DNA from: Tetradesmus obliquus
Taxonomy: Eukaryota > Chlorophyta > Chlorophyceae > Sphaeropleales > Scenedesmaceae
DNA length: 64,000 nucleotides
NCBI GenBank assembly: GCA_030272155.1
Contig: CP126199.1
Location: forward strand, 5,444,501 to 5,508,500
Reading direction: 5' to 3'
Shown: positions 2,240 to 61,770 of the stretch, piece by piece
How the letters are laid out: the number at the start of each line of letters is the position of its first letter
Position numbering within the stretch: the first letter of the stretch is position 1
Translations under genes and position numbers: made by a program
Notes under the pieces: generated by a model
Database searches by the model: none
What the model saw: only the letters and a program-made list of their open reading frames with translations
What the model was told of the DNA's origin: nothing

Positions 2240-5200
2240 ATGGCCAATGAGCAGCCGCCATGCCTGGTGCGCCCAGTGGCGCTGCTGTTCGGAGACAGGT
2301 GAGGCGGCAGCCTGGCAGCTTGTCTGAGGAAACCCTGTGTAAACCACATCATATCAGCAGGCTGTTCATATCACAGCAAACAGATTTGCAAATAGCCTGG
2401 CCAGTCAGTGGCGTAGAGGCAGATGCCAGAGCTGTGTTATTGGCTGCCTCACGGTCTGCTTTCCCTGAAGCGCTGGCATGCACACGGTGCTGTGGCAGAG
2501 CACACTGTAGGGTGGAACGCAAGTTGCAGGCTTGGCCTGAATCTTGATGCATATGAACCTGCCATGCTGCTGCCGCTGCAGCCTGACAGAGCGCAGCATG
2601 GACCCTGACGGCGGCTGGGGGGCTGCGCTGGCACACCACTTTGCCCGCAAGGTAAGGGTATAGATGTTGCACAAACGCCCTCTCCAGCAGCAGCAGCAGC
2701 AGCAGACACCATACTGCCTGATGTAATCTCCTCCGCGCTGTTGGGTTGCAACCTACGGCGCAGTGCAGCCGCTTGCCATCATGGACAGGCACTCTGGCAG
2801 CCCAGCATAGACAAGCATGAGCAATATGCTGCACACGGCACAGCTGAGCCGTGCCGTGCCTGCCAGCATTTAGATAGATCGCTGCATGCGCCATCAATAC
2901 GCCGCCGCTGCTGCTGCTGCCGTGTGACGTGTAGCTGGATGTGGTCAACCGCGGCTGCGGCGGCTACAACAGCCGCTGGGGCCTCAAGCTGCTGGAGCAG
3001 GTGCTGGCGCAAGTGGCATCATCAGGGCAGCAGGTGGCGCTGATGACGATCTGGTTCGGCGCTAATGACGCGGCGATACCGGGGCGCTCCGCGTGAGTGT
3101 TCTAGTCAGCAGAGTACTGTCCACAGATATTTCACCACAGCAGACGTTCTGGGCACATTTTTGCTGGTACGCAGCCGTGCATGTGGTGTGGCTTGCAAAT
3201 AGCTACAAGAGCCGCTGGGGCCTCAAGCTGCTGGAGCAGGTGCTGGTGCAAGACACAGCATCAGGCCAGCAGGTGGCGCTGATGACGATCTGGTTCGGCG
3301 CCAATGATGCCGCGATACCCGGGCGCTCGGCGGGAGTGATAGCAGTGGTGGTTTGTGGCTGGATTCTGCTGCACTGCGCAGGCATTTGCACCTGGCTGTT
3401 TGACCGTGCTGATTGTGGTGTGGCGAAAGTTATGCTCAGCCCTGTGGTTTGCCAAGGCACGCTATTCAAAAACAGCTGACATTGCCTACGATGTCCACAA
3501 CCCAGACTGACTCTGAAATGGGTGCTGCTGCTGCTGCTGCTGCTGCTGCCGTGCATGGTTCACCCGTGGGCGCTGCTGCATTGCTCATGGCCAGGGAGCG
3601 GCAGCACGTGCCCGCGGCCGAGTTTGGTGACAACCTGGCAGCCATGGTGCGCATGGCGCGTGCAGCAGGCATACAACGCATCGTGCTGCTCACGCCGCCA
3701 CCAGTAGGCGATGACGCGCGCGTGCGGCACCAGCAGAAGGTGTGCAGCAGATGGGCTGGCGCAATGTTGTTTGTGAAAGCTGCTGCGTGCTGCTGGAAGC
3801 CTAAGCTGATGCTCTGTGGATGGCGGCAGTCGCAAAAGTCGTCGACACTGCAGAACAAATTTGCAACGGCCTGCGCTGCCGGGGCTGTGGCTGCTGGTGG
3901 CTGTCAACAGGCATCACGCCAGCGCCGCAGCCACTGTTCGACTCATGCGCACATGTTGCTGCTGCTGCTGCATCGCCGCCCTTCAGACATGAAGAACCAC
4001 TTTGCCGTCACCACTTCACATGTCTCATGTTTGCTTGCCACCACCTTCCACCCCGCATCTCCCGCTTGCGGCCGCCTGTCCCCCTGCAGCGCATGGGCAT
4101 CAGCACTGAGATGTCCCATGTTTGCCTGCTGCATCGCCCTTTACCCTACATCTCATACTCCTGCTGCATCCTGCCCTGGTGCCACCTGCAGCGCATGGGC
4201 ATCAGCACTGCCGTGCCGCCAGACCGCACCCTTGAGTACGCAGGCCATTATGCAGCAGCAGCCAGGGCCACAGCGCAGGCGCTGGGGCTGCCACTGGTTG
4301 ACTTGTATGAGCAGCTGCAGGCGGTGCCAGGCTGGCGGGACAGGTGAGAGCACTTGCACAGCAGAGACAGAGGTGCGGCGGAGCTGCAATGTATGGTTTG
4401 CCAGGGGGGCTGTACCAGTGCACGGCAGGGCTGTGCACAGCTGGACGGCGCCTTGACCTAAGCACGACCCCACCTGCCAGCAGTCTATTTGAAATGGGCT
4501 GCCGAATGACATGTCGACACGGATGTGTGCCTTGCCTGCCTGCCTGCCTGCCTTGCCTGCCTGCCCTGCAATGGCTTTGTTGTTTTCTCCTGCAGCCTGT
4601 TTGACGACGGGCTGCACTTCACGCCAGCAGGCAGCCGCAAGGTGTGGACGCTGCTGCGGGACACCCTGGCCGGAGCCTACCCAGAGCTCAGGTGGGTGGG
4701 TAATACTGTGCATGGGAATGCAGCAACATGCCGTGTGGGTGGGGCAGCTGCAGCACCGCAACAGCGCAGCTGCTGCGGGAGGTGCTGGGCAGGGCCTACC
4801 CCGAGCTCATTTGGGTGGCTGTGTGTGCATGGGAGGTGCTGGGCAGGGCCTACCCCGAGCTCATTTGGGTGGCTGTGTGTGCATGGGAGGCATCAACTGT
4901 GGTGTGGATGGGGGCAGCTGCAGCTCGCTGGCTTGCTTACAAACAACATGCAAACTCTGTTTTATCAAAAACAACACCAGCGCAGCTGCTGCGGGACACC
5001 CTGGCTGCGGCCTACCCGGAGCTCAGGTGGGTGTGGCTGTGTGCATGGGGATGCAGCACCGCAGCAACACCTGATGTAAAGAGACAACATTATATGGCTC
5101 CTTGACTGACGATGGGGCCAGGCGCAGCACATCACAGCTGCCTGTGGGCATGAGGTAGCACAGCAGCTGGTGATGTGGCATGTGCTGCTCAGCGCTGTCT

Positions 5201-5842
5201 GCACTGCATGATGGGCTTCGCTTACCTAGAGCTTACAACAGGTGGGGGGTCTGTGTACTTGGGGGATGCGGCAGCTGTGGTGTGGGTGGGGCCAGGCGCA
5301 GCACAGCAACAGCGCAGCTGCTGCGGGAGGTGCTGGGCAGGGCCTAAATGGAGGTCAGGTCGGTGCCTGTGCGCATGGGAAGCAGCACAGCAGCTGGTGA
5401 GGTGGCATGTGCTGTTCAGCCCTGTCTGTGCTGCATGCATTGCAGCGCCGCAATCGGAATACGGCAGCGCTGACATATGTTGGCGTGCCAGCTGTGCAGC
5501 CTGTGTGCAGCTGCCCATGCAATTGCAGCTGCCCTTGACCGCATCCACCACCCAATGCATACTACTCTGAATCACCATTGCCTACTTCGACTGCCCTGCT
5601 GCTGCTGCATCTACTGATGCTGGCACATGACAATTCAAAATCTGAATTGCAAATGTTGCTGCAGCTTGGAGGCACTGTCCAACCAGTTCCCCTGGTGGGA
5701 CAAGTGGGACGCTGCCGACCCTGACGCCTTCTGGGCAGCAGCACTGCCGCAGATGCAGGCCGCAGCACAACAGCAGCAGCAGCAGCAGGAGAGGGACAAG
5801 AAGGAGCAAGAGAAGCAGCAAAAAGAGAAGAAGCAAGGATAG
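2240..5842 (+). CDS. IAH1-like: IAH1-like SGNH esterase
   Basis: Seven exons: 2240-2298, 2582-2651, 2935-3092, 3595-3739, 4192-4343, 4596-4691 and 5665-5842 (285 aa). Codon phase agrees at every junction. The protein matches the isoamyl-acetate-hydrolysing esterase branch of the SGNH hydrolases. It has the block I nucleophile in GDSLTE (Ser20), the block II Gly in NRGCGGYN, block III GAND (Asn87), and the C-terminal DGLH pair (Asp199, His202). The family hydrolyses small esters by a Ser-Asp-His triad. The tail is charged and Lys/Glu/Gln-rich. The start at 2240 places GDS about 18 residues in, as usual for the family; starts at 2111 or 1973 would add a Ser/Ala-rich leader that could be a targeting peptide. 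Exons 3, 5 and 6 each have partial copies in adjacent introns. Confidence 0.85.
3201..3338 (+). repeat. Decayed copy of IAH1-like exon 3
   Basis: This intronic block repeats most of exon 3 (2935-3092), from the GGYNSRWG region through IWFGANDAAIPGRS, with scattered substitutions. The 5' end of the exon is missing. The donor is altered: GCGTGAGTG in the true exon reads GCGGGAGTG here, destroying the GT. Confidence 0.85.
4086..4113 (+). repeat. Copy of IAH1-like exon 5 head
   Basis: The acceptor and first codons of exon 5 (RMGIST) occur 105 bp upstream of the true exon with an identical CTGCAG acceptor. The sequence then diverges. Confidence 0.7.
4755..5378 (+). repeat. Four copies of IAH1-like exon 6 tail
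   Basis: The last part of exon 6 (QLLRD-like start through AYPEL, plus donor and following intron) recurs near 4764, 4831, 4984 and 5315. The first two have lost the donor (AGGTGGGT became ATTTGGGT), the third keeps it, and the fourth has an in-frame stop. Confidence 0.8.
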
Positions 5843-6230
5843 GCGGGGTCATTGGGAGCGTGCAGTGTTGCACAGCCGGAACTTGGGCGGCTGCGTGTGC
5901 TGCTTGCCGTGCTGTCTCAACTTGTTGTTGCAGTGGTTGGAGGTTCATGTGATGTAGAGCTAGTAGCTTTTTCAAGGCCCAGCAGACTGTGCAGTGTGTC
6001 TGCTGCCAAAGTTGTTTTGGCAGCCTGATGTTATTCCCAGCAGTGTGACTATTACTCTTCTGCTGGTCTTGGTCACGTCGCCGCGTTATCAGCGTATAGT
6101 CAGGATTGCCTGGATGCAAATGTGATCATGTAAGTTTAGACTTGTAGTTGACAGAATTCTTCGAAGTGTACAGTCCCGCATCAATTGACAACGCTGCCCA
6201 AGGCAGGCTCCGCATCAAACACAGACTGCC
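5843..6230 (+). other. 3' region and short intergenic spacer
   Basis: This holds the 3' UTR of the esterase gene, with a TGTAA at 6129-6133, and the upstream region of the next gene. No coding sequence is supported. Confidence 0.4.
6129..6133 (+). terminator. Candidate TGTAA polyadenylation signal
   Basis: TGTAA is the usual poly(A) signal of chlorophycean algae. This one lies 287 nt after the esterase stop. It is a five-base motif, so the support is mainly positional. Confidence 0.3.
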
Positions 6231-9271: not shown

Positions 9272-9302
<31 letters not shown>

Positions 9303-9714: not shown

Positions 9715-9761
<47 letters not shown>

Positions 9762-10406: not shown

Positions 10407-10447
<41 letters not shown>

Positions 10448-12060: not shown

Positions 12061-12117
<57 letters not shown>

Positions 12118-12632: not shown

Positions 12633-12670
<38 letters not shown>

Positions 12671-13689: not shown

Positions 13690-15499
13690 ATGATGAAGCA
13701 CGGCGGCATTGCAGCGGCGTTGCTGGTCGTGCTGCTGGCATGTGTAGTTGGCGGGGAAGCAAGGGTTGGCGCAAGGTGCGCAGCTCTGTGTTGTATTCCT
13801 GTTTATTACAAGATTAATTTGGTTATAACAATACGTATTGACGACTGCCATGACGACGCGTGAAATAGGCACTCGGTTGCGCCCCGGGTGTGGCGGGCTT
13901 TTGGAGCCAGGCTGTCTCAGCAATTGTGCATGGCACGGCACGTATTACGATCGTTAAAATTGATATTATATACATCAATATGGCAGGAACAGCATGCCCA
14001 GACGCTTGTGTTGATCATTCTCACTCTCAATCTGCTGTCCCACATGTCTCATCCCCACATGCCTCAAGACCTGCATGATCCTTCATCCCCAAACCCTGCA
14101 TCGCAACTTCAACATCCTTTGCTATTTCATCCATTGCATCCAGGCGTATGGAGCTGCGCCTCAGCGCAATCTCCCGCCGGCTCATGCAGGAGCAAGTCAC
14201 AGTCTCCCCGCAGCAGTACTACCCGCCCCCAGGCGCCATGAGCTGCTATAAGATAACAGAAGCAGAGATGACTTCTGGCAAGCTCTGTGTGTCCCAGATG
14301 CTGTACAGCAACGTCACAAAAGTGGTGTGCCAGGAGTTCAAGCCCGAATGTACAATGAGTGTGGTGGAAGGGCGGCTGCTGGTGCCGAAGGGAGATGCAA
14401 GGAGCAACCCTGCAGAGTTCCAGCAGAGCAGCGAGGCGGCCTGCAAGCTGCTGGGGTACAAGTAAGCATAAAGTTTTGCTGATGCTTGTTAGGCTTCAAC
14501 GATGTGGTTATCTAGGCTTTGTTTATAGTTGTGTTTAGGCAGCAACCCTGCAGAGTTCCAGCAGAGCAGCGAGGCAGCCTGCAAGCTGCTGGGGTACAAG
14601 TAAGCGGTTTGGGATGACTGCTGATCTTTAGGGGGCTGGTTGAGTAATGGCAGTGATCTGCGGCAGAAGCTACCGGCAGCTTCAGCAGCAGCTGCGCGCA
14701 AAGCATCGGTTGCAGCACCCAACGACATGTTGCAAGCAGCCATGAGCAGCATAGCATTTCCAGCATGCCAGGCATGCGTATTGCTGCAGAACAGTTATTA
14801 GATGCAAGCAAGCACCTGCATGCAAACTGCTGTCATAATGCTTTGCCTGGTGCTGGACCCCCGCGCTCTCAGCAGCTGCAGAGCAGCTGTGGCGTTAACA
14901 GTGTTGAACTTGCAGGCAGCAGAGCTTGAAATACACACATTCTGACCAGTTATTGTGTTGCACCTCTGCCTTGCTGCTGCCGCTGCTGCTGCTGCTGCTG
15001 CTGCAGGACCTCTGGCAGCGGCTCCATCCATATCACTGGTGGGCCCCACAGCTGGTGTTGTGATGGCAGCAGTATAGCTATGCAAACCGGCCCTGTGTTT
15101 ATTATACAGCAGTGCAGAAGGTTCAGCAGACTATTGTACAGTGCAGATTAGCAGTCGATGGTGCATCTCTGCAGCTTTGTTGCTTGCAGGAAAACAGAAT
15201 CTGTGGCGCTAGCAGCAGCAATTTGTTGATAGGCACTGTGCAGCACCTGCATGATGGCCCTGATGCCAGCTGCTGGCAGTTTTCAAGTGCCTGTCACGCT
15301 TGCAAAATGTTGGTGCAGCTACAGACCATCAGAGATTATGATGTCAGCGTTGATGCCTGCCAATTCTACCTGCTGACCATGGCGCTGTTGGTGCGCTGGC
15401 TACACTGCAGGCGACACGCCAGCCGCCAAGACTGTGTGCTGGAACGGCCGCGAGTGGGCCAAGGACAACTGGTGGGTGCAGCTGGTGTGCTGTGTCTGA
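13690..15499 (+). CDS. Secreted Cys protein, paralogue A
   Basis: Four exons: 13690-13775, 14144-14461, 15007-15038 and 15411-15499 (174 aa), with phase kept throughout. Exon 1 encodes a signal peptide (hydrophobic core IAAALLVVLLACVV). The mature domain carries evenly spaced Cys: MSCYKI, GKLCVSQM, VVCQEF, PECTMS, AACKLLGY, TVCWNG and LVCCV. The terminal block WNGxxWxxDNWWxxLVCC is shared with paralogue B at 17692. I do not recognise the family. Eight Cys plus a signal peptide suggest a compact disulfide-bonded extracellular domain. The second intron holds a tail copy of exon 2, and the 3' flank holds a short copy of the terminal codons. Confidence 0.7.
14537..14606 (+). repeat. Copy of paralogue A exon 2 tail
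   Basis: About 65 bp repeat the end of exon 2 (SNPAEFQQSSEAACKLLGYK and the GTAAGC donor), nearly identical to 14403-14466. Confidence 0.85.
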
Positions 15500-15709: not shown

Positions 15710-16422
15710 CTGCATCTGTTCCACCACAATGAGCAATGAAGCAGGAATCGGCGGCAATAATAATGGTTGTAGGTGTGGCAGTCCAGCTTTGACAGCAGAA
15801 ACAGGGTGGGGGTTACATGCAGTATTGTCTGTTCCTATGCATGTTCTGTTGATGGCCAGCAAAGGTTGTACATGTTTGCTTCAGTATCCTCCTTGGGTGG
15901 GTTCCAGCTGATTTCTGTTGAGCATGAGTGTGCATATCATTGAGGTGAAAGCGCAGGCCACCTGTCTCAGCAGCATAAATCTCCCTACAGGCCTGACATT
16001 TGACCGCGACAGGCTCTTCCGCAAATCGCTTTGTGTGGCATGCTCAAGTAGCAGCAACAGGATGAGCATATGGCGATGCCTGCGTCAGACAGTGTACTAG
16101 CGGGGCCAGCAGCGGCCACCTCGAGATACCCTCTTGTTATTGGCCCCTCAGATGCCACCTGCAAGCAGTGGGGCCAGGCCCTTTGGGGCATGGTTGCTGC
16201 ATGGCTCAAGCAGTGTATGCGCATGCTGCAGGTGGCTCCCTGCCGCCGCTTCTGTTGTTTGGTTTGCACTGTGTGGCAGGCATAGCTGCACAATACTGCC
16301 TTTGGCACTTCTCATGCAGTAGTTGCGTGGTTGGTGCCTGGTGCTCCATTCTGCAACTGCTCTTGCAGCACGTTGGTCGCTATTAGTCAGCACTGGCATG
16401 CCTGTTGGACTACCGGCTGCTC
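15500..16422 (+). other. Non-coding spacer with CAG tracts
   Basis: Contains CAG runs at about 15519-15565 and 15651-15702, and a 27-bp copy (about 15608-15634) of the last codons of paralogue A (VQLVCCV then stop). No gene supported. Confidence 0.5.
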
Positions 16423-16602
16423 TGCATGTGACCATGACGTCTGTGTCCATGTGCATGGGTGGCGCTGTGCATGTGACCATGACGTCTGTGTCCATGTGCA
16501 TGGGTGGCGCTGTGCATGTGACCATGACGTCTGTGTCCATGTGCATGGGTGGCGCTGTGCATGTGACCATGACGTCTGTGTCCATGTGCATGGGTGGCGC
16601 TC
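16423..16602. repeat. 45-bp minisatellite, four copies
   Basis: A 45-bp unit beginning TGCATGTGACCATGACGTC is repeated four times with essentially no variation, starting at 16423, 16468, 16513 and 16558. The period is divisible by three, so frames stay open through it on both strands, but no gene context supports translation. Confidence 0.95.
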
Positions 16603-32800: not shown

Positions 32801-33195
32801 GTTTTGTGCCGTCAATGTGAGGGGTCTGAAATTCTTACACCTGCAAAATGATTTCCACTGCTGCGCTGCAGGCCGCCTCCCCTGACGAGGAGGCGCTGGT
32901 GGCTGGCGCGGCTTACCTGGGCACCAAGCTGCTGTCACGGTGAGGCTCTGTCGTAGGTGCATTGCGGGTGACTGGCGGGTGAATTACAGGGTGTTGCGGG
33001 GTAATTGAGGGGGTATTGCGTAGGCAGCCAGGCTGCACTGGACTGGAGCTGTACTGTGTTTCCACGTGTACATGCAGCAGCATGACATCCAGCAACACAC
33101 CTCAGCCCAGACATTCAAGGCTTACTACGTTGCAGTTTGCAGGGTATTTCGCACATTGAGCAGCTCGCAGGACAGCCACCCTCCTGCACCGTACC

Positions 33196-33247
<52 letters not shown>

Positions 33248-36200: not shown

Positions 36201-36915
36201 AGGAGTGCAGCGCGGTCATCTGCTGCCGCGTGTCACCCATGCAAAAGGCTCAGGTGCGCACATGAACGGGATCATTTTTTCCTTTTTCAATGGTTATGGC
36301 AGGATTGTTGGCAGTTTCAGCGTGTTGTCTTTTAGTTTGAGGTGCGCGACAAATGCGGACGGCTCAGCTGCGCATACAGCTGGCACCAGGCGCGTGGCAG
36401 TGGCATTGCAGTTGTGGCGCTGCAGCCGCAGCACGAGGATGAGCTGCTGGCGCTGTGCGAGGAGTGCAGCGCGCTCATCTGCTGCCGCGTGTCACCCATG
36501 CAGAAAGCTCAGGTGCGCACATGAAATGGGATCATTTTCCAATGATTCTGGCAGGATGTTGGGCGGTTGCAGCTTGTTGTATTTTAGTTTGAGGAGCGTG
36601 ACAAATGCGGACGGCTCAGCTGCGCATGCAGCTGGCACCAGGCGCATGGCAGTGGCGCTGCAGCCGCAGCACGAGGATGAGTTGCTGCCGTCAGGTGGCC
36701 AGCCTGCTCAAGCGCACAGGAGTGCCAATTACGCTGGCCACGCATTGACTGTTGCTGCTGCTGTTGCTGCTGCTGTTGCTGGTGCTGTTGCTGCTGCTGC
36801 TGTCACCACGCGCTTGCTCTTGCTGTCACCAGGTGGCCAGTCTGCTGAAGCACAAGGCGGGCGTGGTGGCGCTGGCCACCCATCAACTGCTGCTGCTGTC
36901 ACCACCCACTTCCTC

Positions 36916-36953
<38 letters not shown>

Positions 36954-37147
36954 TGCCGCCAGGTGGTCAGCCTGCTCAAGCACAAGGCGGGCGCGGTGAC
37001 CCTGGCCACCCATCAACTGCTGCTGCTGCCACCCACTTCCTCACTGCTGCTGCTGCTGCTGCCGCCAGGTGGCCAGCCTGCTGAAGCACAAGGCAGGCAT
37101 GGTGGCGCTGGCCACCCATCAACTGCTGCTGCTGCCACCACATACTC

Positions 37148-37191
<44 letters not shown>

Positions 37192-37386
37192 TGCCGCCAG
37201 GTGGTCAGCCTGCTCAAGCACAAGGCGGGCGCGGTGACCCTGGCCACCCATTAACTGCTGCTTGCTGCCACCCACTTCCTCACTGCTGCTGCTGCTGCTG
37301 CCGCCAGGTGGCCAGCCTGCTGAAGCACAAGGCAGGCATGGTGGCGCTGGCCACCCATCAACTGCTGCTGCTGCCACCACATACTC

Positions 37387-37430
<44 letters not shown>

Positions 37431-40400: not shown

Positions 40401-41354
40401 GCACTGGACGGCCATCAACCACGGCCTCATCTGGGGCACCCTAGCCCTCTGGCTGCTCTTCCTGGCACTGCTGCAAGGCCTCTGCGGTTCAGTGCCCAGC
40501 CTAAACCCCCTGTGCGGTTTAGGGCCCGAGCTGCTGGGCTCGGCGGGGTTTTGGCTGGGGGCAGTGCTGGGGGCGCCGGCTGTTGCGCTGCTGCCGGATT
40601 ACACAATCATGGTGTTCCAGCGGCAGGTGGCCCCCAGGGCGAGTCAGCTGCTGCAGGTGGGCGGCGGGGTGGTTGCTGTTTTTGTAAACTTGGCAGCTGC
40701 TGTTGTGCTGCTGCGCTGCTGTGGTGGTTGTTGGAGGGTGTCTTTGCAGCTGCGCCCAGGGCGATTCAGCTGCTGCAGGTGGGCGGCTGGACAATTGCTC
40801 TTGTTTTTTCGTTGTTTTCAAACACTTGGCAGCTGCTGTTGCTTGTCTGCTGTGATTGTTGTTGGAGGGTATATATGCAGCTGCCCCCCCAGGGCGAGTC
40901 AGCTGCTGCAGGTGTGCGGACTGCATGTGCTTGTTTGAGCGTGGCGGCTGCTGTTGTGCTGCTGCATCTGTATGTTAACCAGCGTTTCCGCAGCTGCGCT
41001 TGGTCTGCTGCAAGATGCCCTGATTGCTCCTGCCTGCATGCTGCTGCTGTGCACGTTGCTGCAGGAGGCGGAGCACATGCGCAAGCAGGCACTGAAGAAG
41101 GGCCTGGCAGCCAGCCCAGCAGCAGCAGCAGCAGGTCAGCAGCCGGCATCTGTGCAGCTGCCAACCCATGGACCGGATGTCGAGCCGCAGCTTCGACAAC
41201 AGCAGCAGCAGCAGCAAACAGCAGCTGCGGCACGGCGGCAGCAGCAGCAGCAGCAGCCGGGCACGGCCGGCGGCGGCATCATCGCAATCGCCAGCGTGTC
41301 CAACGGCGAGGGCGGAAGTGCAGCCAACAGCAGCGCTAACCTGCTGGCGGGTGG

Positions 41355-41396
<42 letters not shown>

Positions 41397-43867: not shown

Positions 43868-45215
43868 ATGAGGCGATTACAGCTCTTTGCCGTGATTGTT
43901 GCGGCATTAGCATTAATGCTGGCAGGTAAGAGCTTCACCAGGTCATGATTTCGGTCGGCCTTCATGTTTTCTGCTTAGTTCGTTTGGGATCCAGTTGCTG
44001 CAGCAGTAGGTGGCAACAGGCTATGTTTTCTGCAACATGCTGCATCCCTTGCCAGCAGTGACCCCCTCATAAGCAAGCTTTACAACTGCCTCGACATCGC
44101 TATTCTCACCAGGGCAAGCTTTTGCGTCTGCATCATTGCCGCATTCATTGGACCTGCTCCACTGGAGCTGATATGTGACATACGAGCGCACTGCACGCAG
44201 CAGTTCACAGCAGAGCAGTTTACAGAGCGCGTCCAGACAGCTTGTTCCAGCCGCTTGACTAGTGATACTATACATCACCAACATGAGCACATGCCTCACC
44301 CACCTGGGCCCTGACAAGGTTGCTGCTGCTGCTGCTGCTGTGCCTGCAGAGGTCAGGTGTGGTACTGGCCCTGCCTCCTACATGTTTGAGGGACCGCCAA
44401 AGGCCCTCAACACTGATCACCTGGTGGCCCCCAAGCTGCCTAAGGAGTTTGAGGAGAAGCCAAGGAAATGGCACAGCGATGCAGCTGACGAGGCTGCGCA
44501 CCGCAAGCTGCAGGGTGAGCGCTGCTGGCGTTGCTTTGACACAGCCTTGCGTGGTTCACTCTGCTTTGCATGTGCCGAACTCAGGAGTTGCTGCAGCAGT
44601 GCGCAATGCAGGGTGGCCACATTTTCCAAGCACTCGCGGCTTGCTGCTGCTGCGTGCAGGCGTTGATGGCGGTGTGTCTGGCCCCGCGTCCTGGCAGTAC
44701 TACCACCCCCTGAACGCCAAGGTCTGGCAGAAGATGCAGCCCGCACTGCCCCGCGACACGCGCGAGACACATGGAGGCACAGCAAGGCGCCTGGCAGGTG
44801 CGGGTGTGGCCATGTTGATGAAAGAGAGCTGGCAATGCAGCCCCTGCAGCTGACAGCAGCAGCAGCATGCCTTGTGCTTCCTGAAGGGCGATTTTGTGCC
44901 TTGCTGCCTGTATGGGTGCGCATATATGCAGCAGCTGCGCAGAACAAGCTGCTTGAGCTAGAGAGCAGCATATATAGAAGCCGGATTGCTACTGTTGGGG
45001 CTGAATGCGTCCCCACACAAACCTTAGCTGCTGTGATGTGCAATGCATCCCACTTGAAACATCAATACTGTTGTTGTTGTTGTTCTTGAAGCGACCTCTG
45101 GTTTATTCGCCTGTGTGCATTTTCATCTCAGCGCTTCACAGCGCAAGCATTGTCAAATGAAGGGCAGTGCTGTGTAGATCATAGAGTGTTACATGCTCCG
45201 CTGTGCCTGGCTGCC

Positions 45216-45265
<50 letters not shown>

Positions 45266-47846
45266 GTGCAGGCGTTGATGGTGGTGTGTCTGGCCCTGCC
45301 TCCTGGCAGTACTACCACCCCCTCAACGCCAAGGTCTGGCAGAAGATGCAGCCCGCACTGCCCCGCGACACACGCGAGACACATGGCGGCACAGCCAGGC
45401 GCCTGGCAGCTGTTGATGGCGACACTGGCCCGGCCTCTTATGCATTCGGCCCACTCGAGCTTCCCAAGCGAGGGCAGCTTCCTCGCGAGCCAACTTTCGA
45501 GCGCCACGCATTCCCAAAGTGGGTCGTCAATCCAGCCGCCATCGCACGTGCAGCGGCAAAGGTTGACCGCAAGCTGCTCGATGGAGGGGCAACAGGCCCG
45601 GCTTCTGAGCTGTCTGCGATTGGAGCTGTCCCAATCGACCTGCCGTACAAAGGCGAGCTGCCAACTGTACCAGACTTTGAGCATCGTGCAATGAATGGTC
45701 CAATTGAAGAGGGAGAGGAGGTGGATGGCGGTGCCCGGCTGCTGCTGGGTGGTGGCGGCAGCCCTGACAGCTGGCAGCGCTGGGGCGGCAAGCCCGAGTT
45801 TGAAAAGGTGTGGCAGGCCAGCAGCAGCATGCCGCTGCCGCGCGGGCGGCGCGAGACGCACGGCGGGGCGAGGAGGCTGCAGGAAGGTGCGCAGAAGGTG
45901 TTTCAAATGTTTTTTGCTGCTTCTGACAAGCCGTGGCACAGCTGTGAATGCTGCTCCTGTGCTGCCGCGACCTTTGCCACGCGCCGGTCCTATCCTGCAC
46001 ACGTTCACATCCTGCAAGCAGTCGCACAACTCAGTGTACGCATGATCAGTTATACGCCTGTAGGGTAGTTTTGACTGCTGCTTTCACTGCCAACAGTGGT
46101 GATGCCCTGATTACACATTTAAAACTCCCGATCTTGTTCAATCCTGCTTTCAGGTGGCACATCAGGCCCTGCATCCTGGCATTACTACCACCCCCTGAAT
46201 GCAAAGATCTGGCAAAAGATGCAGCCTGCACTGCCAAGAGACATACGCGAGACGCATGGCGGCACAGCCAGGCGCCTGGCAGGTGCGTGTGTGCTGACAC
46301 CTAGGCAGCAGGTGCTAATCTGCTTCTGCATGTGGCGAGATCTTCCACTAAATGAAAAATGTTGCTGCCACCAGCTGCTAGAAGCGGTGCAGATGTTGAG
46401 TCCTGAGGGTGTGCTGTATATGTGTGATGCCAGCTGACCTGCTGCTGCGCTGGCAAGTGCTGATGGCAGAGCACAACTGCATCCCACACCGTCCTGCAGA
46501 GCACGGGCAGCCAAGCTGCTGCTGCATCTCCCGTGTAGCGATATGACTGCAGTGTCATGTCTGACACACCACATCTGTACCACCAACCCGCAGGCATCAG
46601 CAGCAGCGGCCACTCTGGCCCAGGTGCCGAGATGTTTGCCTGACCATAGTGCTGCACCTGCTGCCACATTTTACTCACCCACAGGCATTGACAGCGGAGG
46701 CCATTCTGGCCCGAGTGCCGAGATGTTTGGCCCAGTGGAGCTCCCCAAGCGCACAAAGCTGCCCACAGAACCCGACTTTGAGCGCCGCGCAGTGACAAAG
46801 CCAGATCAGGTGCAGAAGCCAGAGGCCCGCATTGGCGGTGCACGGCTGCTGCTGGGTGGTGGTGGCGGCCCTGACAGCTGGCAGCGCTGGGGCGGCAAGC
46901 CCGAGTTTGAAAAGGTGTGGCAGGCCAGCAGCAGCATGCCGCTGCCGCGCAAGCCGCGTGAGACGCACGGCGGGGCGAGGAAGTTGGCAGGTGGGCACGG
47001 CAGGCGGCCTGTGCGCTACGTTGCAGCAGCTGCTTCTCTTTCCTGGCTAGATCCTTTGCACCTTTGTTGAGCCGTCAGAACTCTGAGTCACACGAGATTG
47101 CTGCAGCAGCTTACTAGTGTTTAAGGCATGCTGCGCATATCTGCATTCCCGCCTCACCTTGCCGCTGCTGCCACCGCTGCTGCGTTCATCTCTCCTTGGC
47201 ACTGCTGCGCCGCATTTGCAGGTGACTGGGGGTCCCGCATCCGGCCGCAGCTTCGGAACGAAGAGACTGCAGCAGATGTGAGGCTCCTGCAGGTCACAGC
47301 AGCCCTCAGGCATTTGCTCGGTGCGCATTGCGATGTTGCTTTGTAGCATGGCTGCGCACAGCAGCATTGACAGCTGACCTCTGCATGTTGCTGTGGCTTT
47401 GATGATGTGTCGAACTGCAAGTGTGCACATCGAAGCAGCGTATTGCGTATGGCAATGTACAGCAACAGAGCATCACCAGGAGTATGCGTGTCACTTGCTG
47501 AACCAGCAGGCACCCAGCTCAACTCAAACTGCACCGCCAAACATGCCAGCTGCGTCCTACAGTATGGCACAGCATTCAACGGTCCGCTGATGCACATTAT
47601 GAACCCTGCTGTTGCTGCTGCTGCCACCTGCCAATGCAACACTTATGCACACTTGCAGGAGCAGAGGCTGTAGAGGACCACAGGTACCGCGGGGACCACA
47701 AGGGCAAGGCGCGTGTGTATGAAATTGCCGTTCCAGCCCCTGACATGGAACAGAAAGCTGCTGCAAGGGATTCACAGGGCTTTGCAGCATCCAGGGATGA
47801 GGCACAGTACAACCCTGCTGCTGTGCGGTTTGCGAGCATGGGTTGA
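43868..47846 (+). CDS. Secreted modular repeat protein, unknown family
   Basis: Eight exons: 43868-43925, 44350-44514, 44660-44797, 45272-45886, 46154-46282, 46685-46990, 47222-47320 and 47659-47846 (565 aa). Every internal intron is phase 1, so exons 2-7 are symmetric and can be duplicated or skipped without a frameshift. Exon 1 encodes a signal peptide (LFAVIVAALALMLAG). The body is built from related modules with a core of GPASW, then KxWQKMQPALPRDxRETHGGTARRLA (exon 3, start of exon 4, exon 5) and a variant PDSWQRWGGKPEFEKVWQAS, then LPR-x2-RETHGGAR (end of exon 4, exon 6). Linker modules contain ELPKRxxLPxEPxFERxA. I do not recognise the family. Absence of Cys pairs and abundance of Trp, Pro and charged residues suggest a fibrous or wall-associated protein, but that is speculation. 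Confidence 0.78.
45218..45271 (+). repeat. (CTG)n tract before exon 4 acceptor
   Basis: About 15 CTG triplets immediately precede CGTGCAG, the acceptor of exon 4 of the modular protein. The same but shorter arrangement precedes exon 3 at 44640-44659. Confidence 0.85.
46591..46642 (+). repeat. Aborted head copy of exon 6 of the modular protein
   Basis: CCGCAG plus codons for GISSSGHSGPGAEMF recurs about 90 bp before the true exon 6 (GIDSGGHSGPSAEMF) and ends in TGA. Confidence 0.85.
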
Positions 47847-52443: not shown

Positions 52444-53566
52444 CTATCTGCTGCCGTCCGCTGCTTCTGCTTCCCACTTTGCTTCCGCTTCCCGCTTCGC
52501 CCGCAGCCGCGCCTGCGCCTCCTTGTACCTGTTTATGTCCACTACCTGCGTGTTAGCCGCCCAGGGGTTGTGTGATGTGACCTGGCCGTTGACCACGAAG
52601 GAATCCGGCCGCCAGTTCTCTGGCGCCCGCTCCTCCTCCTCCTCTCGCTTGTCAGTCAAGATGCTGCACGACGCAGCAGCAGCCGCAGCAGCAGCAGCAG
52701 CAGCAGGCAGCAGGTGGCACGCATGCTCACTTCAGCCATGTACAGATGCTGTAGGTGGTGCAACATGCAGCCACAAGCAGTTGTGCCTCACATGCTGCAA
52801 CGCAGCGCAAACTATGCCAGCTGCAACGCTAGAGCCACAGCACAAACCCATTACAATGCACACAACCCTCCAGACCTGTACGTAGCAACCCAAAACATCT
52901 CTCACCTCTGCAGGATGGCCACTCCTGCTGCAATGGAAGGGATGGCCAGCAGCCCCATCATGCTCAGCAGCGCAGCACTGCACCCCCAATTGCAGCCAAA
53001 AACCCAACCCTCACGTCTGCAGTATAGCCACTCCTGCTGCAATGGAGGGGATGGACAGCAGGCCCATCACGCCCCTGCCCCAGAAACACAACTCTAAACA
53101 TCAATCACACCAAACATCTCTCTCATTTCTGCAGTATGGCCACTCCTGCTGCAATGGAGGATATGGCCAGCAGCTCCATCATGCTCAGCAGCGCAACACT
53201 GCACCCTCAACTGCAGCCAAAGATTTAACGCCCTCACCTCTGCAGTATGGCCACCCCTGCTGCAATGGAGGGTATGGCCAGCAGCCCCATCATGCTCAGT
53301 AGGGCCAAGTTGTTGCGCCCGCTGCGCATCATGGCCCGATAGAAGCCCCACTCCGTCTCGTGGCCTGCGCAGCAGCCAAGACACCACAGACAACAGATCA
53401 GCTGCATGTGCCACACACATGTCAAACAGCACGACACATGAAATTCTGCTGCTGCTGCTGCTGCAGGTCGTTGCGGCCGCATGTGAGGCAGCACACCTGC
53501 AGATGCGTAACCACTGCTAGAACCTGCAGCACCTGCAGGTTGCAAGCTGCCCCTGGACAACAGGCA

Positions 53567-53600
<34 letters not shown>

Positions 53601-54138: not shown

Positions 54139-54175
<37 letters not shown>

Positions 54176-55151: not shown

Positions 55152-58100
55152 ATGCGGGCAGCACAGCTGTTCCAGTTGCTGCTAGCGGCCTTGCTAGTGC
55201 AGACAGCTTACGCGATCGCGCCGTTCAGCAGCTGGCAGCAGCATGGGGCCATGAAAGAGAGCACCAGATACACACCTGAAGCAGAGGCTGATAGGGTAGA
55301 TGACCTGCCTGGATCGCCTAATGGCCTCGATTTCGGAATGTTCTCGGGGTAGGCAAGGCTGTCTGTCATGCTGCACACCACTTGAGCTTCAGCTCATGCG
55401 ATGCCTGCTGCTGCAACCACTAATGTGCTTCTCTGCCTACCACACATGCTGGTGTTGCCTAGTTACGTTGCTTGCATGCATAGACCGCATTATTTACTCA
55501 CTTTGGGAGCATTTAGCCGCTGCTGTGGCTATTGGGTGCTGCCACAGGCCAGCAGTTGTCTGTGTCACACCATATCACCTGTTGCACCTGCCGCACTGCC
55601 CCTGCCGTGCCCCTGCACTGGTCACGCAGATACATCACAGTAGACGAGGCAGCGGGGCGTGCACTGTTCTATGTGTTTGCTGAGGCACGGGAGGCTCCCG
55701 CCAAGGCCCCGCTGCTGCTGTGGCTCAATGGGTGCGTGTGCTTGATGGCGGCCCAGCGTTGCATTGCCTTTCCCTGCGCTGTTGCTTGCTGGAAATCAAG
55801 TGCTTCCGAAGAGCACACAGAACGATTATGCACGGGCGTTGCAGCCTGCAGTCAACAGGGTATAGCCGCATTCACGCATGCATTCTCTCGGGCCTACCCG
55901 AGCGGCACGGGACTCACCTGGCAGCAGCAGCAGCAGCGGCGGCAGCAGCAGCTGGAGCTGCATCTGCTCGCGCCAGCTGCCTCCCACTGTCTGCCGCAGA
56001 TGCTGCACTCCACGCCAATGCGCGCTGCACCTGCCTAGCCTGTTGAATGCGACTGCAGACATCTACCGTCTTGCCTGCTTTTTATCAACATAGCTATCTA
56101 AGACGTAGTTATTTGCCAAATGCATCTACGCAACTGCAGCGGCCCCGGCTGCAGCAGCTTGGGTGGCGGCTTCATGTCTGAGCTTGGCCCCTTCTACCCC
56201 TCAAGGAACGGCAGGCGGCTGCAGGAGAACCCTTATTCCTGGAACGGCCTGGCGAACATGCTGTGGCTGGAGAGCCCCGCGTATGTGGGCTTCAGCTACA
56301 GCAACACGTCATCAGATGCGATCGTAGGTGGGTTGAACAGCCAGGCAGCAGACAGGCAAACAGCAGATTGTTTTGGACGTGCTGTGGCTGGAGAACCCCG
56401 CGTACGTGGGCTTTTCATACAGCAACACGTCATCGGACGCGATTGTGGGTGAGTTTGATGCTCAAGTGCAAACAGGCAAGCAGCACTGCGGTGCAGCGAG
56501 TGCTGTGGCTGCAGAGCAGCGCCTGCTGCCCATGTTGCACATTTGGATGGCGAATGGTGTTACATCCCACTGCAGTTGCGCGGCAGCAGCCGACGGTCTG
56601 TCTGTTTGATTGTGCCGCACTGTGCGCTGTGCTGTTGCAGGTGACGGGCGCACTAGTGCAGTACTGCTGCTGATGCGCGGCTGTTCCTGCTGGGCTTCTC
56701 CCACAAGGCACAACAGCCTTGTCCCACACCACATAACAATCATCTGGAAGCTGACTCCGGTTTGTGCCGTGCCCTACTGCAGGTGACGGGCGCACTGCTG
56801 CCGATGCGCGGCTGTTCCTGCTGGGCTTCCTGAAGCGCTTCCCGCAGTACGCGGCCAGCGACTTCTACCTCTCCGGGGAGAGCTACGGTGAGCATGTGCA
56901 TGTAGTGCGTGTGTGTGGAGCTATGGGAGTTGGACACATGTTGTTTGTAAGGAAAGGCGGCGTCTGGTCATTCTGGACCCTAGCGACTTCTACCTTTCCG
57001 GCGAGAGCTACGGTGAGCATCTGCAGCACAGTACTTGCAGTGAGCATCTGCATGCACCGCGTGCATGGAGGTATGGGGAGTAGGACTGCGATTTGGCTTT
57101 TGGAGGGTGGCAGTCAGACGTCTGGTCATGTTGGCCGCTAGCGACTTCCGCCAGCGACTTCCACTTCACCCGAGAGGGTGAGTGCTACGCTAAAAGCGGT
57201 GACAATCCATTGTTGCTTTGATGCTCACTTTGCGTGTCCTGGCCAACATCTCACTCAACTTCGGCCTGCACATTTTTTTGGTATCATGTCCTGTACCTGC
57301 CGTGCACCATGCCCGGGTATTATCCTCTATCAGATTCGCTGTCACGTGCTACGTGTCGTGCTGTATGAGATGCTCAGTTGATGCTCTTTTGTGTGCCTGC
57401 AGCGGGGCACTACGTTCCCAACCTGGCGTGGGAGATTGTGCTGGGCAACAGGCGCGCACGGGAGGCTGAGCAAGCAGCAGCAGCAGCAGCAGGGGCGAGC
57501 TCAGCAGCAGCAGCAGCGGCGACAGCAGCAGCAGCAGCGGGCGTGTCGCCTGGCAAGGGCTTCATCAACCTGAAGGGCTTCTTTGTGGGCAATGCATGGA
57601 CAGATGCTGCCATCGACAACGAAGGTGCGGGAGGCTGCAACAGCAATCTTGGAAGCATGCGTGAATTAGTGTTGCACAAACAGCTGCTGCTGCCGCACAC
57701 TGCCCCTTCCAGCAAGGGGGAGGAGCATGCGCACTGTGTCTGCGGTGCCCCTTGGCGTTAGCTGCTTGTATGTAACGCGCTGCACTGCCTGTGTTTCTGA
57801 CACCTGTAGCGCCAATCAGTGTTTGTCACTTTTTGTGTTACTTTTCTGTTACTTTGACCGCGTTGACCGCCAGGCGCGCTGGACTTCTGGTACAGCCACG
57901 CCATGATTGGGGAGGCGAGCTACGCGGCACTCAAGGCCAACTGCGACTTCAGCAGCATTGGGTGAGCGCCGGGAGCCTTGAACCCAAACTGTAAGACTGG
58001 ATTATTTCTAGCAAGTGCTCCAGCACATTGCCGTTGCTGCTGATGCAGCCTGCAGCAAGCCGCCGGTCATGGTCTGCGTATTGTGTGCAATCAGGTTGAT

Positions 58101-58200
58101 TTTGCTAACTCAGCTACCTGCGTTGCCATGGACATGTGTGGCAACGGTCTCTCAAACAGTCATGACATGCATCGTGAGCGGTTGCTCATTTGACCGGCTG

Positions 58201-58260
<60 letters not shown>

Positions 58261-61200
58261 AGCCCTCTCATGCGCGGCAGCCAGGCGCTGACCCTGCCAG
58301 GCACACACACAAGCACCGGGCCCCAGCAGCAGCAGCAGCAGCAGCGGCAGCCTCCTGCACACTCCGCCAGCCGCCCTGCTGCAGCAGCAGCAGGCAGTGC
58401 TACAGCCACATCAGAGGGCTGGGTTCAGGGTTCAGGCCTGGGCCACAGCAGGGTTCAGGGCTGGGGAAGGTGGGGCTCTAGTGCTGGCAGCCGCTACTGG
58501 GCGGGCCAGGGCCTGGCTGGGCCCAGCCGCAAGGATGACAGGGCAGCCACCTGCGCCAAGTGGTGAGAGGCTGCAGCAGAAATATAGTATTCTGATGTAT
58601 GATTACATTCTTGTGTCGTGTCTTGTTTGGTGTTGGGTGATGGATGCTGCGGGGTCTGTAACAGGTTGGGTGCTGGGCAGGCTGCTGTCGCGCATCGCAT
58701 GTTGTGTTCAGATCTTCTGTGCAATGCTTTGTGGCGCCGCCACCACATACTCTATGCGCTGTGTCCACCAAGCTGTTCCGTGCAGGTGGGATGCCGCCAT
58801 GGCTGAGCACCACAACCACACCATCATATTTTACATTGCGACACATGCATTGTCTACAACAGCACTGTACTGCTTTCTGTACTGCAGGCTTGACATTCCC
58901 ATGGCTGAGCAGGGCAACATTAACATATATCTTGACACTGCACAGCTCGTAACAGCAGTCTGTACTGCTTGCTGCACTGTACAGCTGTGTACCGCAGGCT
59001 GGACATTGCCATGGCTGAGCAGGGCAACATCAACAAGCTCCACAGTCACAACACGCATGCACCGCTGCTGCTATATGTACTGTACTGCTTGCTGATCCGC
59101 CTTTGTTCCGCAATCGTACCGCAGGCTTGACATTGCCATGGCTGAGCAGGGCAACATAAATATCTATGAGATCTACGCGGATGTGTGCACCAAGCAGGGC
59201 GGCAGCAGCAGCAGCCGTCGACAGCAGCAGCAGCAGCAGGGTGGCAAGTACTACGGTGCTCTGCTAGGGCACACCAACCCCCTGAGGACAGGTGCGGGCG
59301 CTGCACATCGACAATTGGCTCATTTGCACCTGCATGTGCACAGCTGTGCATCATCCTCACAGCTGTGCCTGTCAGCTTGTGCATGTGCTGGAATGGGTGT
59401 TTATTTTAAAGTGTGGGCTGGCAGGGCCAGCCCCCCTTAGATTGGATAAACCCTTTACCCGCTGGTGTATTCATATAAATATAAGGCCTGAAAGGGACGT
59501 TTGGCTCTCCCAATTGACACAGCAAGCTTGCCCAACTTGCATGTTGCTGAGCTCGGGCCGTCGTGGATGCTGCTGCGTTGCTGACATGCGCTGTTGGGTC
59601 TACTACAACTGGTGGTGGCAGCTGGGCTCATGCTGCTGCTGCTGACCTATCTGCTGCTGCTGCTGCTGCTGCAGTTGGCGGCCCCGATGCTGGCGATGGC
59701 GGGGTTGATGATGGCAGCCAGCCGCGCCGGCCGCGCTACGACCCCTGCGTGGATGGCGAGGTGGAGACATACCTCAACCTGCCAGAGGTGCGTGTTGTTT
59801 GTTACTTTTTGTAACATTGTAACATGTGTTATGACATAGGCATGCCGATTGACAACAGCTGGGCCTGGTTCAATGCCACAGTTTTGAACCGACAGTTCAC
59901 GGCCCTAACCGCCGCTTCACGCGTGTTGTGGCTGCCTGCCTGCCCTACCTGCTACCGCCGTCAAAACGAGGCCACGCTAGTTCTTTCTGCCTGCCTGCCT
60001 GTCTGCCTGCCTGCCTGCCTGCCTGAGGGCATCAGAAGCGTGAGCCTCAACCCTGGCCAGAATTGATATACAAACAAATCCTGCCTGCCTGCCTTGTGTG
60101 TAGGTCCAGGCAACCAACCAGACGTGCAAGTTGCCATGCCTCAGGCGACTAAAAATGAGCACTGCTACATGAAAACCCTTGAGCCGTGCCTGCCTGCCTG
60201 CCTGCCTGCCTGTGCAGGTCCAGGCGGCGCTGCACGCCAACCAGACGCGCAAGCTGCCGTGGCGCTGGGCCGACTGCACCAGCCAGATCAGCTACTCGCG
60301 TGATGACCTGCTCAGCAGCATGCTGCCCACCTACAGGAACCTGCTGGGCGAAGGTGAGGACGCTTGCGTGTGTGGATATTGTTTGTGATGGGGCTAGTAT
60401 TTCGCTCTTTTACTGATGCTGGGAGCACCTACAGTTTGGTGCTGGGAGAAATGAGAGCGCTGGGGTGTGGGCTGCGCTGTGGCAGCTGCCGCCCTCAGCC
60501 TGCCAGGTGCACAGACTTGCCGTAATGGGTTTGGGCTGTAGCAGCTGGCATTGTACTCCGCACAGCACTCATGTTGCTGCGTGCATCGTTACAGGGATTG
60601 CTGTCCCTTCTCCTCACGCAATATCTGACATGTGATGCATTGCATGTGTGCCGCTGGCCTCAGGATGTGGGTGTTCAGCGGTGACGTGGGCGGCGTTGTG
60701 CCCGTGCTGGGCAGCCGGCCTGCGGATCTGAAATCATCTCAAACCCATCTTTTTTTGTCTTCCGTGCAGGCCTCAAGATGTGGGTGTTCAGCGGCGACGT
60801 GGACGGCATCGTGCCTGTGCTGGGCAGCAGGCGCTGGGTGGCGGTGCTGGGCCTGCCTACTGTAAAGCCCTGGAGGCCATGGTACAGCAGCAGCGGCCAG
60901 GTGAGGCAGGGTATCAGCAGGTTGCTGCGATTCTGGAGGTTTGCGGGCAGTGATGGTTCATTGCTGGTTAATGTTGTGGCGAGGCAGTGTTTGAGCACTG
61001 TTGCATGCGCTCTGAAAGCAGGCAGCACATTGCGTCTGTCGTAGTGTAGATGTGGAACCTTGAGGTTACATGTTTCTGTTGGTTCTCTCACCAAATCGGC
61101 TGGCTGGCTCCCCGGCTACCACAACCTGACCTATGCTGACTGGGTTGTTATTGTTACATTGTTACTTTTGCTTCTGTCGCCAGGTTGGCGGCTGGCGCGT

Positions 61201-61451
61201 CGACTACCGCAACCTGACCTATGCTGACTGGGTTGTTATTGTTACATTGTTACATCTGCTTCTGTCGCCAGGTTGGCGGCTGGCGCGTCGACTACCGCAA
61301 CCTCACCTTTGCCACCGTGCGCAACGCGGGCCACATGGTGCCCTACGTGCAGCCGGAGCGCGCCTACCACCTGCTCAGCCGCTTCTTGTTTGAGGACCAG
61401 CCGCAGCCATCAGGCAGCTGGCTACACCTCAAGAAGCAGCAGCAGGCATGA
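55152..61451 (+). CDS. Serine carboxypeptidase (peptidase family S10)
   Basis: Twelve exons: 55152-55348, 55630-55731, 56140-56327, 56783-56887, 57403-57624, 57874-57961, 58263-58562, 59125-59291, 59675-59787, 60218-60353, 60770-60900, 61272-61451 (642 aa), phase consistent. A signal peptide ([16 protein letters not shown]) targets the secretory pathway, as expected for a vacuolar or extracellular enzyme. Landmarks: LLLWLNGGPGCSS (oxyanion/substrate region, about 93-105), SGESYAGHYVP with nucleophile Ser196, [14 protein letters not shown] with catalytic Asp551, and RNAGHMVP with His604. Cys-containing segments YDPC and ADC match the conserved disulfides. The family removes C-terminal residues from peptides, and some plant members act as acyltransferases. 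Low-complexity inserts in exons 5, 7 and 8 lengthen it beyond the usual 450-500 aa. Several junctions have decoy copies. Confidence 0.92.
56372..56455 (+). repeat. Tail copy of carboxypeptidase exon 3
   Basis: The codons for [20 protein letters not shown] and the donor are repeated with few changes just after the true exon end at 56327. Confidence 0.9.
56638..56690 (+). repeat. Head copy of carboxypeptidase exon 4
   Basis: GCAG plus [15 protein letters not shown], with an insertion that breaks the frame, lies about 143 bp before the true exon at 56783. Confidence 0.85.
56978..57180 (+). repeat. Two tail copies of carboxypeptidase exon 4
   Basis: The codons for [12 protein letters not shown] plus donor recur at about 56980-57018 and, decayed, at 57140-57180. 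Confidence 0.8.
58200..58262 (+). repeat. (CTG)20 tract ending in the exon 7 acceptor
   Basis: Twenty perfect CTG triplets run directly into the CAG acceptor of exon 7, so the repeat itself occupies the position of the polypyrimidine tract. Confidence 0.9.
58783..59040 (+). repeat. Three head copies of carboxypeptidase exon 8
   Basis: GCAG plus [16 protein letters not shown] codons recur at about 58786, 58887 and 58998, before the true exon at 59125. Confidence 0.87.
60102..60150 (+). repeat. Decayed head copy of carboxypeptidase exon 10
   Basis: GTAGGTCCAGGC plus a degenerate ANQTCKLP lies about 115 bp before the true exon. Both are preceded by (TGCC)n. Confidence 0.65.
60660..60720 (+). 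repeat. Head copy of carboxypeptidase exon 11 with Asp to Gly
   Basis: [18 protein letters not shown] is encoded about 115 bp before the true exon, which reads [18 protein letters not shown]. Confidence 0.87.
61100..61271 (+). repeat. Tandem head copies of carboxypeptidase exon 12, 88-bp period
   Basis: A unit holding TCGCCAG plus [12 protein letters not shown], then TATGCTGACTGGGTTGTTAT, occurs at 61184-61271 and, partly, at 61103-61183, before the true exon at 61272. Confidence 0.9.
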
Positions 61452-61770
61452 GGCAGGGCAGTGCCCTAGATGCAGCAGGAGCGAGCCTACCACTTGCTGA
61501 GCCGCTTTTTTCTGGATCAGCCGCAGCCATCAGGCAGCTTGCTGCACTTCAAGAGCAGAGCAGAGGAGCAGCAAGCTTGAGGCAGGACAGTGCCCTAGAT
61601 GCAGCCGCAGCACGTGCCCCACCTGCTCAGCCACTGTCCTGCTTTGAGGATCAGCCGCAGCCATCAAATAGCTTGCTGCATCACAAAAGCGCAGCAGCAA
61701 GCAGTGCTCTACGTGCAGCCGCAGCAAGCGTACGTCTGCTCAGCCGGGTTTTTTAGGATCAACCGCAGCC
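61452..61770 (+). repeat. Three tail copies of the carboxypeptidase C-terminus in the 3' flank
   Basis: After the stop the codons for [20 protein letters not shown] and PSGSWLHLK recur in decayed form at about 61467-61580, 61590-61690 and 61708-61785. Confidence 0.85.

Follow-up and report, generated by a model that had tools for sequence, protein, structure and literature searches.

Partial copies of exon edges in introns of Tetradesmus obliquus and their divergence at silent sites

Introns of the green alga Tetradesmus obliquus hold partial copies of the exon edges that adjoin them. These copies have been analysed in a 64-kb stretch of contig 9 (positions 5,444,501–5,508,500; hereafter the window) of the T. 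obliquus assembly (104.66 Mb, 17 contigs) and in 20 randomly placed 10-kb stretches, whose coordinates were taken only from the contig portions known at the time of drawing. The window and the random sample together make up 264 kb, or 0.25% of the genome. The copied exon edges are real and extend beyond the window, and nearly a quarter of the junctions examined appear, on sequence evidence, to carry dead exon-edge copies in the adjacent intron, usually with a splice signal. Copies and exons differ disproportionately at silent sites, and simple duplication followed by decay leaves this silent bias unexplained.

Exons were called by a gene finder trained on nine exons of a P4-ATPase (flippase) gene of the window and refined over the 264 kb, with repeats masked, donors restricted to GT and a cost placed on leaving an intron. 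It called 510 exons and placed eight of the nine seed exons exactly; the called donors are mainly CAG/GTGAG or GTGCG and the called acceptors mainly CTGCAG/G (slash, splice junction). These calls are computational, copies are occasionally called as exons and some primary exons are false. Because the finder sometimes calls copies as exons, the calls were ranked by score, and of the 368 exons left after filtering by length and score, 299 were kept as primary.

Local direct repeats at splice junctions

Self-comparison of the window after a complexity filter gave 86 direct repeat pairs, all less than 3 kb apart, and one inverted pair. The random 200 kb contain 282 local direct and 9 inverted pairs covering 38,305 of the 200,000 bp, whereas a 200-kb control generated by a fifth-order Markov model has no local direct pair and two inverted pairs, so that this control and the complexity filter rule out chance and low complexity as the source of the repeats. 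At least one local direct pair is present in 17 of the 20 random stretches. The density is uneven, a junction array being absent from five of these stretches, and any local repeat pair was found at 3 of 12 LHC loci, which overlap one another.

The repeats are concentrated at the ends of exons. In the window and the random 200 kb, a copy lies upstream of 61 of 283 exon heads and downstream of 4; for the 283 exon tails the numbers are 69 downstream and 9 upstream; and the middle is copied in 25 of 226 exons. The 291 exon–copy alignments comprise 142 heads, 116 tails, 18 whole exons and 15 interior segments. Local repeat arrays touch a primary splice junction in 123 of 145 cases, whereas 300 random placements gave 77 on average and 93 at most. 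The 22 arrays lying elsewhere consist of 13 confined to an intron, 5 partly in an exon, 2 within an exon and 2 between genes.

An earlier reading of the window, the original prediction, had proposed that exon copies follow a fixed geometry, heads upstream and tails downstream, that every duplicated segment spans a junction, and that spacing is mostly about 90–250 bp. The geometry is seen, but it is the automatic product of head-to-tail duplication across a junction and no extra rule is needed. Duplication of a segment running from an exon into the following intron leaves the exon tail and its donor twice, and therefore puts the second copy downstream; the mirror case puts copies of heads upstream. 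Heads lie upstream, tails lie downstream and only one copy of each exon is full because it is the inner copy alone that remains attached to the exon. This argument follows from the structure, its sole requirement being that splicing retains the inner site. Most arrays do touch a primary junction, although the 22 exceptions show that not every duplicated segment spans one. The spacing is as predicted: for 116 exon ends the nearest copy lies at a median of 127.5 bp, and 91% lie within 90–250 bp. The junction enrichment holds against the random placements, and the proposal that junction-crossing duplication feeds intron growth, at high density in this genome, is supported by the excess of direct pairs, the orientation of heads and tails and the junction count.

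The nearest-copy spacing has a floor near 100 bp (5th percentile 101.5, quartiles 114–171), and the smallest spacing is 66–145 bp in most of the 13 intron-only arrays. The floor and the intron-only spacings hint that the copying process favours units of a certain size.

The sequence between copies is less easily explained. There are 51 single-pair junction arrays, of which 19 consist of two copies at identities of at least 88%. In these 19 (one sits between a pair of called exons and another is truncated where its stretch ends), a block X of 42–137 bp that crosses the junction is followed by a spacer N of 30–149 bp, a second X and a sequence R, and N and R are unrelated. Among 46 pairs at identities of at least 92%, 37 are shorter than their spacing and 9 have a length-to-spacing ratio of at least 1. 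Copies adjoin without an unrelated spacer in full-period arrays, but not in close two-copy pairs. Significant intron similarity is found in 52 of 129 tail copies, which belong to full-period arrays with homologous introns. In 33 tail copies that lack it but match the exon strongly, identity falls from 0.94 at intron position +5 to 0.48 at +6. Unrelated spacers in close two-copy pairs are unexpected and are not explained by simple tandem duplication alone.

A dispersed element as the source of the copies was sought by genome searches and found for none of the six regions probed. Two window regions have no other genome match at E ≤ 1e-15, and the best-scoring candidates for four sample exons are the exons themselves and their own arrays, to which are added an 87% paralog for one exon and a short 77% match for another. 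The exon with the paralog is helicase-like and has eight head copies at its own locus (L019). Its paralog on contig 4 (L043; 1.2 kb, 2782700–2783900) is 87% identical over 120 bp and has no clear copy of the L019 exon head, with one 23-bp match, while repeats of about 110 bp apparently stand where its next exon begins. Gene copies may thus gain or lose arrays independently of one another once duplicated. Among LHC paralogs, L034/L040 and L036 (contigs 5 and 8) have exon stretches 91–98% identical and introns without a BLAST match, and the predicted presence of introns varies (for example L036 295–538 and L032 2386–2634).

State of the copies and silent-site divergence

The copies retain strong splice sites of their own: the level met by 80% of real sites is also reached by the donors in 73% of 110 tail copies and by the acceptors in 74% of 138 head copies. 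The partner sites that an alternative exon would use are at background. A partner acceptor is found near the start of tail copies at a frequency of 0.107 (n = 112), against 0.123 in random intron windows, and a partner donor near the end of head copies at 0.058 (n = 138), against 0.088. A reading of tail copies as mini-exons, which began from an AG in 29 of 57, was given up after the position weight matrix (PWM) test proved negative. The reading frame is not kept, 30 of 158 indels in exon parts being multiples of three and 257 of 1,124 in intron parts, and stops account for 24 of the 649 non-synonymous single changes, roughly the proportion expected under neutrality (about 4.2%).

Amino-acid differences at junction ends of the flippase and carboxypeptidase genes point the same way. 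In 94 differences, which were counted per copy and hence are not independent, the outgroup state is in the exon in 79 and in the copy in 4, with 11 without a call; when each change is counted once, the figures are 67, 3 and 9, and before the junction filter they were 99, 5 and 19. The P-type ATPase motif DKTGT, whose Asp we take to be the catalytic residue, reads GKTGT in both head copies of its exon. Because partner sites are absent, the frame is lost and damaging changes have accumulated, the copies are read as now dead, as far as their letters tell. Selection for splice-site redundancy, which the original prediction had offered as one cause, thus finds no support, since partner sites are at background, the frame is lost and 79 of the 83 resolved amino-acid changes lie in the copy. 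The competing acceptors or donors that the original prediction described do exist as arrays of strong sites, but bear no sign of use.

Silent and coding divergence were compared in a set of 242 copies at 113 splice-junction exon ends, after the removal of 8 of 250 copies (four at non-junction ends and four at a doubtful exon, L009 7652); the main numbers show the same pattern before this removal. Whole-exon copies were abandoned as a neutral control, since they rest on six called exons of which several are false (L009 9408, L012 3548 and window 37069). Between copies and exons the mismatch is 0.241 at fourfold sites (n = 2,611) and 0.068 at codon positions 1 and 2 (n = 9,730), a ratio of 3.57 (bootstrap 3.05–4.18). 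Even the 29 copies without any position-1+2 mismatch have a fourfold mismatch of 0.205 (n = 312), although 6 of the 29 have none, and across rising bins of position-1+2 mismatch the fourfold values are 0.205, 0.217, 0.243, 0.266, 0.292 and, in the most diverged bin, 0.241, the upper bins being flattened by similarity-based detection. Eleven single-copy exon ends have the same signature, with 26 mismatches at 140 fourfold sites and 4 at 507 position-1+2 sites. Between copies of one exon the mismatch is 0.253 and 0.090, respectively. Among single-base codon differences, counts of which were not restricted to junction ends, the synonymous share is 0.593 between exon and copy (n = 1,593), compared with 0.266 expected if one side is neutral, 0.57 between copies and 0.85 for differences common to two copies.

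Fourfold mismatch shows no overdispersion (chi2/df 1.07), whereas positions 1 and 2 do (2.28). Because the fourfold split is nearly constant while the coding split varies, a roughly constant silent separation of about 0.2 combined with a variable dead time fits the data, as would be expected of copies that differed from today's exon when they arose. Faster mutation at silent sites of exons was considered and set aside, since the opposite is seen in one LHC pair (L035 and L037), where 5 of 139 fourfold sites and 136 of 637 aligned intron sites differ, a comparison that codon bias may confound.

Possible origins of the copies

We give an even chance to the reading that copies and exons result from duplication with a silently diverged functional version of the exon, whether by joining a diverged haplotype or lineage out of register or because such a version replaced the exon afterwards. 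DNA blocks would often be copied head to tail over short distances, with repeat spacing mostly 100–170 bp, and where a block crosses a junction the copy joined to the exon would stay in use while the other would become intron. Copies that break an exon would presumably be purged, and purely intronic copies would soon be unrecognisable if introns diverge fast. The silent differences would date from a time when copy and living exon both still coded. The copying partner, or the later replacement, would be a functional version of that exon with silent differences, most probably from a different haplotype or lineage and joined out of register, and exchange among the exon, its alleles and older copies may later have reshuffled the arrays. 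Such joining would leave N and R unrelated from the start. Events confined to introns would then go unseen, and the enrichment at junctions could be due to this. Out-of-register joining, later exon replacement and the circulation of tracts among exon and copies are thus the three candidate sources.

Several points weigh against duplication with a diverged version. The carboxypeptidase of the window and OEZ85_009991, from two T. obliquus strains, differ by three residues outside alanine and glutamine runs, so that, to judge from this one protein, strains of the species would not ordinarily differ by 0.2 at silent sites and a more distant lineage or an old polymorphism would be needed. The fourfold mismatch between copies means that two parental lineages are insufficient. 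No donor lineage was found among the best candidates in searches of the probed exons, and by our own reasoning a chi2/df near 1 is unlike the spread of a simple coalescent. A single hyperdiverse population as the partner is likewise weakened by the near-identity of the strain protein and the lack of fourfold overdispersion.

It is doubtful that the exon and its intronic copies instead form a pool exchanging by gene conversion or unequal crossing over in both directions, with coding changes purged in the exon while silent ones circulate. In favour of such exchange, the ratio of informative to singleton sites is 0.35, whereas a star simulation gives 0.08; incompatibility is seen in 91 of 201 site pairs (0.61 with columns shuffled), the fraction rising from 0.20 in 41 pairs less than 6 bp apart to 0.65 in 68 pairs at least 30 bp apart; and third-position mismatches are slightly clustered (mean z −0.18, standard error 0.08, n = 163). 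However, the distance effect is not significant, being reached by a fraction of 0.078 of 500 within-array permutations, homoplasy could produce part of the incompatibility, and single-copy ends with the same signature need intermediate copies that were lost. We consider rather unlikely the broader picture in which introns are an archive of earlier or foreign functional exon edges that exchange with the living exon, silent variation being reshuffled and coding changes filtered. The silent-site signature would turn introns into a record of a gene's recombination partners, whether alleles or lineages.

A plain tandem origin, in which a segment over a junction is duplicated and its intronic copy then decays neutrally, with the exon constrained and neither another lineage nor exchange involved, is unlikely. 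It explains the orientation, the geometry, the dead copies and the continuous range of identities; full-period arrays with homologous introns are what it would leave, and total divergence is mostly greater in copies farther from the exon (22 positive and 6 negative trends in 30 arrays). By our own reasoning, however, it predicts a ratio of fourfold to position-1+2 mismatch near 2, below the observed bootstrap range, and it does not account for the fourfold mismatch of copies identical at positions 1 and 2, for a synonymous share between copies that exceeds the expected 0.27, or for close two-copy pairs without a shared spacer.

It is very unlikely that the copies are, or long were, used as alternative exon edges in translated transcripts and so came under coding selection in place. 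The silent bias of both exon–copy and copy–copy divergence and copy splice sites nearly as strong as real ones would fit such use, but partner acceptors and donors are no better than background, the frame, the Asp of DKTGT and freedom from stops are lost, and the isoform would encode nearly the same residues. Highly improbable is an assembly artefact in which divergent haplotypes of a heterozygous culture were placed serially in introns, which would yield the X-N-X order, silent divergence and unrelated spacers. Against it stand up to eight copies per exon end that all differ from one another, the stops in copies and their loss of conserved residues, near-equal periods and local direct pairs in so many random stretches.

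Genes of the window and known systems

The original prediction placed the pattern in the esterase, OPR-like, secreted A, GT32, flippase, modular, DnaJ and carboxypeptidase genes; not all of these show it clearly, and it is absent from GT32. In the flippase gene (28 primary calls, 24300–42400), 11 of 28 heads are copied upstream (one downstream) and 12 of 28 tails downstream (one upstream); one of the primary calls, 37069–37233, is itself a copy. A Monoraphidium flippase protein matches the full exons and, in the expected order, the partial copies. The carboxypeptidase gene has 4 of 11 heads copied upstream and 2 of 11 tails downstream, and T. obliquus OEZ85_009991 matches its primary exons at 90–100% amino-acid identity (64% in one alignment that runs past the exon), the copies appearing as extra partial matches. 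The corresponding counts are 1 of 8 heads (one downstream) and 3 of 7 tails (one upstream) for the esterase gene, 0 of 8 and 1 of 8 for the OPR-like gene, 0 of 2 and 1 of 2 for secreted A, and 0 of 4 and 1 of 3 for DnaJ. In the modular gene, 1 of 3 heads and 1 of 2 tails are copied, mixed with module repeats, and a head copy lies downstream at 46162–46293, against the geometry. In GT32, none of 4 heads or 4 tails is copied and no repeat pair was found.

Table 1. Exon-edge copies and associated genes in the window (positions in bp of the window)
Feature	Position	Strand	Remarks
Esterase exon 2935–3092 and tail copy 3202–3338	2935–3338	+	102-bp unrelated spacer; copy without GT
Esterase exon 4596–4691 and repeats of its tail	4596–5437	+	some placements against the geometry
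Secreted-protein exon 14190–14461 and tail copy 14541–14605	14190–14605	+	64/65 identical; 73-bp unrelated spacer
P4-ATPase (flippase) gene, main locus	24363–42361	+	28 primary exon calls in 24300–42400
Head copy of exon 26580–26702, upstream	26431–26498	+	pair with 26554–26624
Two tail copies with donors, exon 26580–26702	26751–26934	+	period about 113 bp
Head copy with own acceptor, exon 27891–27961	27778–27821	+	
Four tail copies, exon 29118–29308	29369–29889	+	
Five tail copies, exon 30059–30193	30261–30777	+	
Head copy upstream of exon starting 30961	30814–30894	+	
Tail copies of exon 30961–31053	31103–31251	+	92-bp period; finder overextended exon to 31145
Two head copies of exon starting 31964	31455–31779	+	SGKTGT in both, SDKTGT in exon
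Head copy, exon 32872–32939	32752–32799	+	
Two head copies, exon 33579–33754	33332–33546	+	
Two tail copies, exon 34239–34510	34687–34973	+	
Array of seven head copies of exon 37770–37904	36683–37705	+	CTG repeats interspersed
Three tail copies, exon 38225–38381	38427–38698	+	
Head copy, exon 39027–39192	38912–38968	+	
Tail copy of exon 39606–39789	39945–40022	+	ends 6 bp beyond donor boundary
Modular gene, exon 45272–45886	44642–46991	+	head copy 44642–44800; tail copy 46833–46991
DnaJ exon 53238–53364 and three tail copies	52885–53364	−	copies in following intron
Serine carboxypeptidase gene	55152–61451	+	exons confirmed by T. obliquus OEZ85_009991
Tail copy, exon 56158–56327	56376–56485	+	
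Head copy, exon 56783–56887	56636–56698	+	
Tail copy of exon 56783–56887	56982–57025	+	81-bp unrelated spacer
Two head copies, exon 59125–59291	58862–59033	+	
Head copy, exon 60770–60900	60653–60719	+	
Head copies of exon 61272–61451	61065–61224	+	88-bp period
Degraded copies with stops, end of last carboxypeptidase exon	61461–61775	+	past stop codon: gene end, not junction

Other repeats are present in the window. About four near-identical 45-bp units at 16419–16601 lie in a called intron, unconnected to an exon edge, and a 50-bp unit at 63142–63340, called intergenic, has about two identical copies and a diverged copy (63276–63340). CAG/CTG repeats run throughout the window, in exons (as poly-Q, A and S) and in introns, often flanking copies and acceptors.

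The arrays supply a concrete route for intron growth. If nearly a quarter of junctions carry strong competing copies, the spliceosome must choose by position or context, and the natural arrays make this choice of splice site directly testable. In titles and abstract openings of the literature on intron duplication and on the genome of this species, no description of such arrays was found.

Tandem exon duplication, as in mutually exclusive exons (for example PMC9013439), also places exon copies with splice signals next to one another, but the copies here are partial and degenerate and have one splice site. Among the 112 tail and 138 head copies scored, partner sites are no more frequent than background, whole-exon alignments come from six called exons of which at least three are apparently false, and the copies keep no open reading frame, as the indels and stops indicate.

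Introner elements are another genome-wide process that alters introns in algae; the difference is that the copies described here match their own exon locally and that no shared element was found for the six regions probed. Intronic minisatellites form head-to-tail arrays too, often with periods near 90–140 bp, and the repeats here are likewise short-range and in the same orientation, as the counts of direct and inverted pairs and the spacing show. However, the unit here contains an exon edge with a splice site, and the spacers of close two-copy pairs are unrelated.

Introns are reportedly also gained by tandem genomic duplication of an exon segment containing AGGT, in a model of the Rogers type. 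This process shares with the present arrays direct duplication, intron sequence derived from an exon, an unchanged spliced product and heads upstream with tails downstream. There the duplicate makes a new intron whose two ends both lie inside copies; in the 19 inspected single-pair arrays, copies do not abut both ends of the intron, which continues after tail copies and precedes head copies. In these cases the copies of T. obliquus lie inside an intron with a splice site of their own and a spacer, and several can accumulate.

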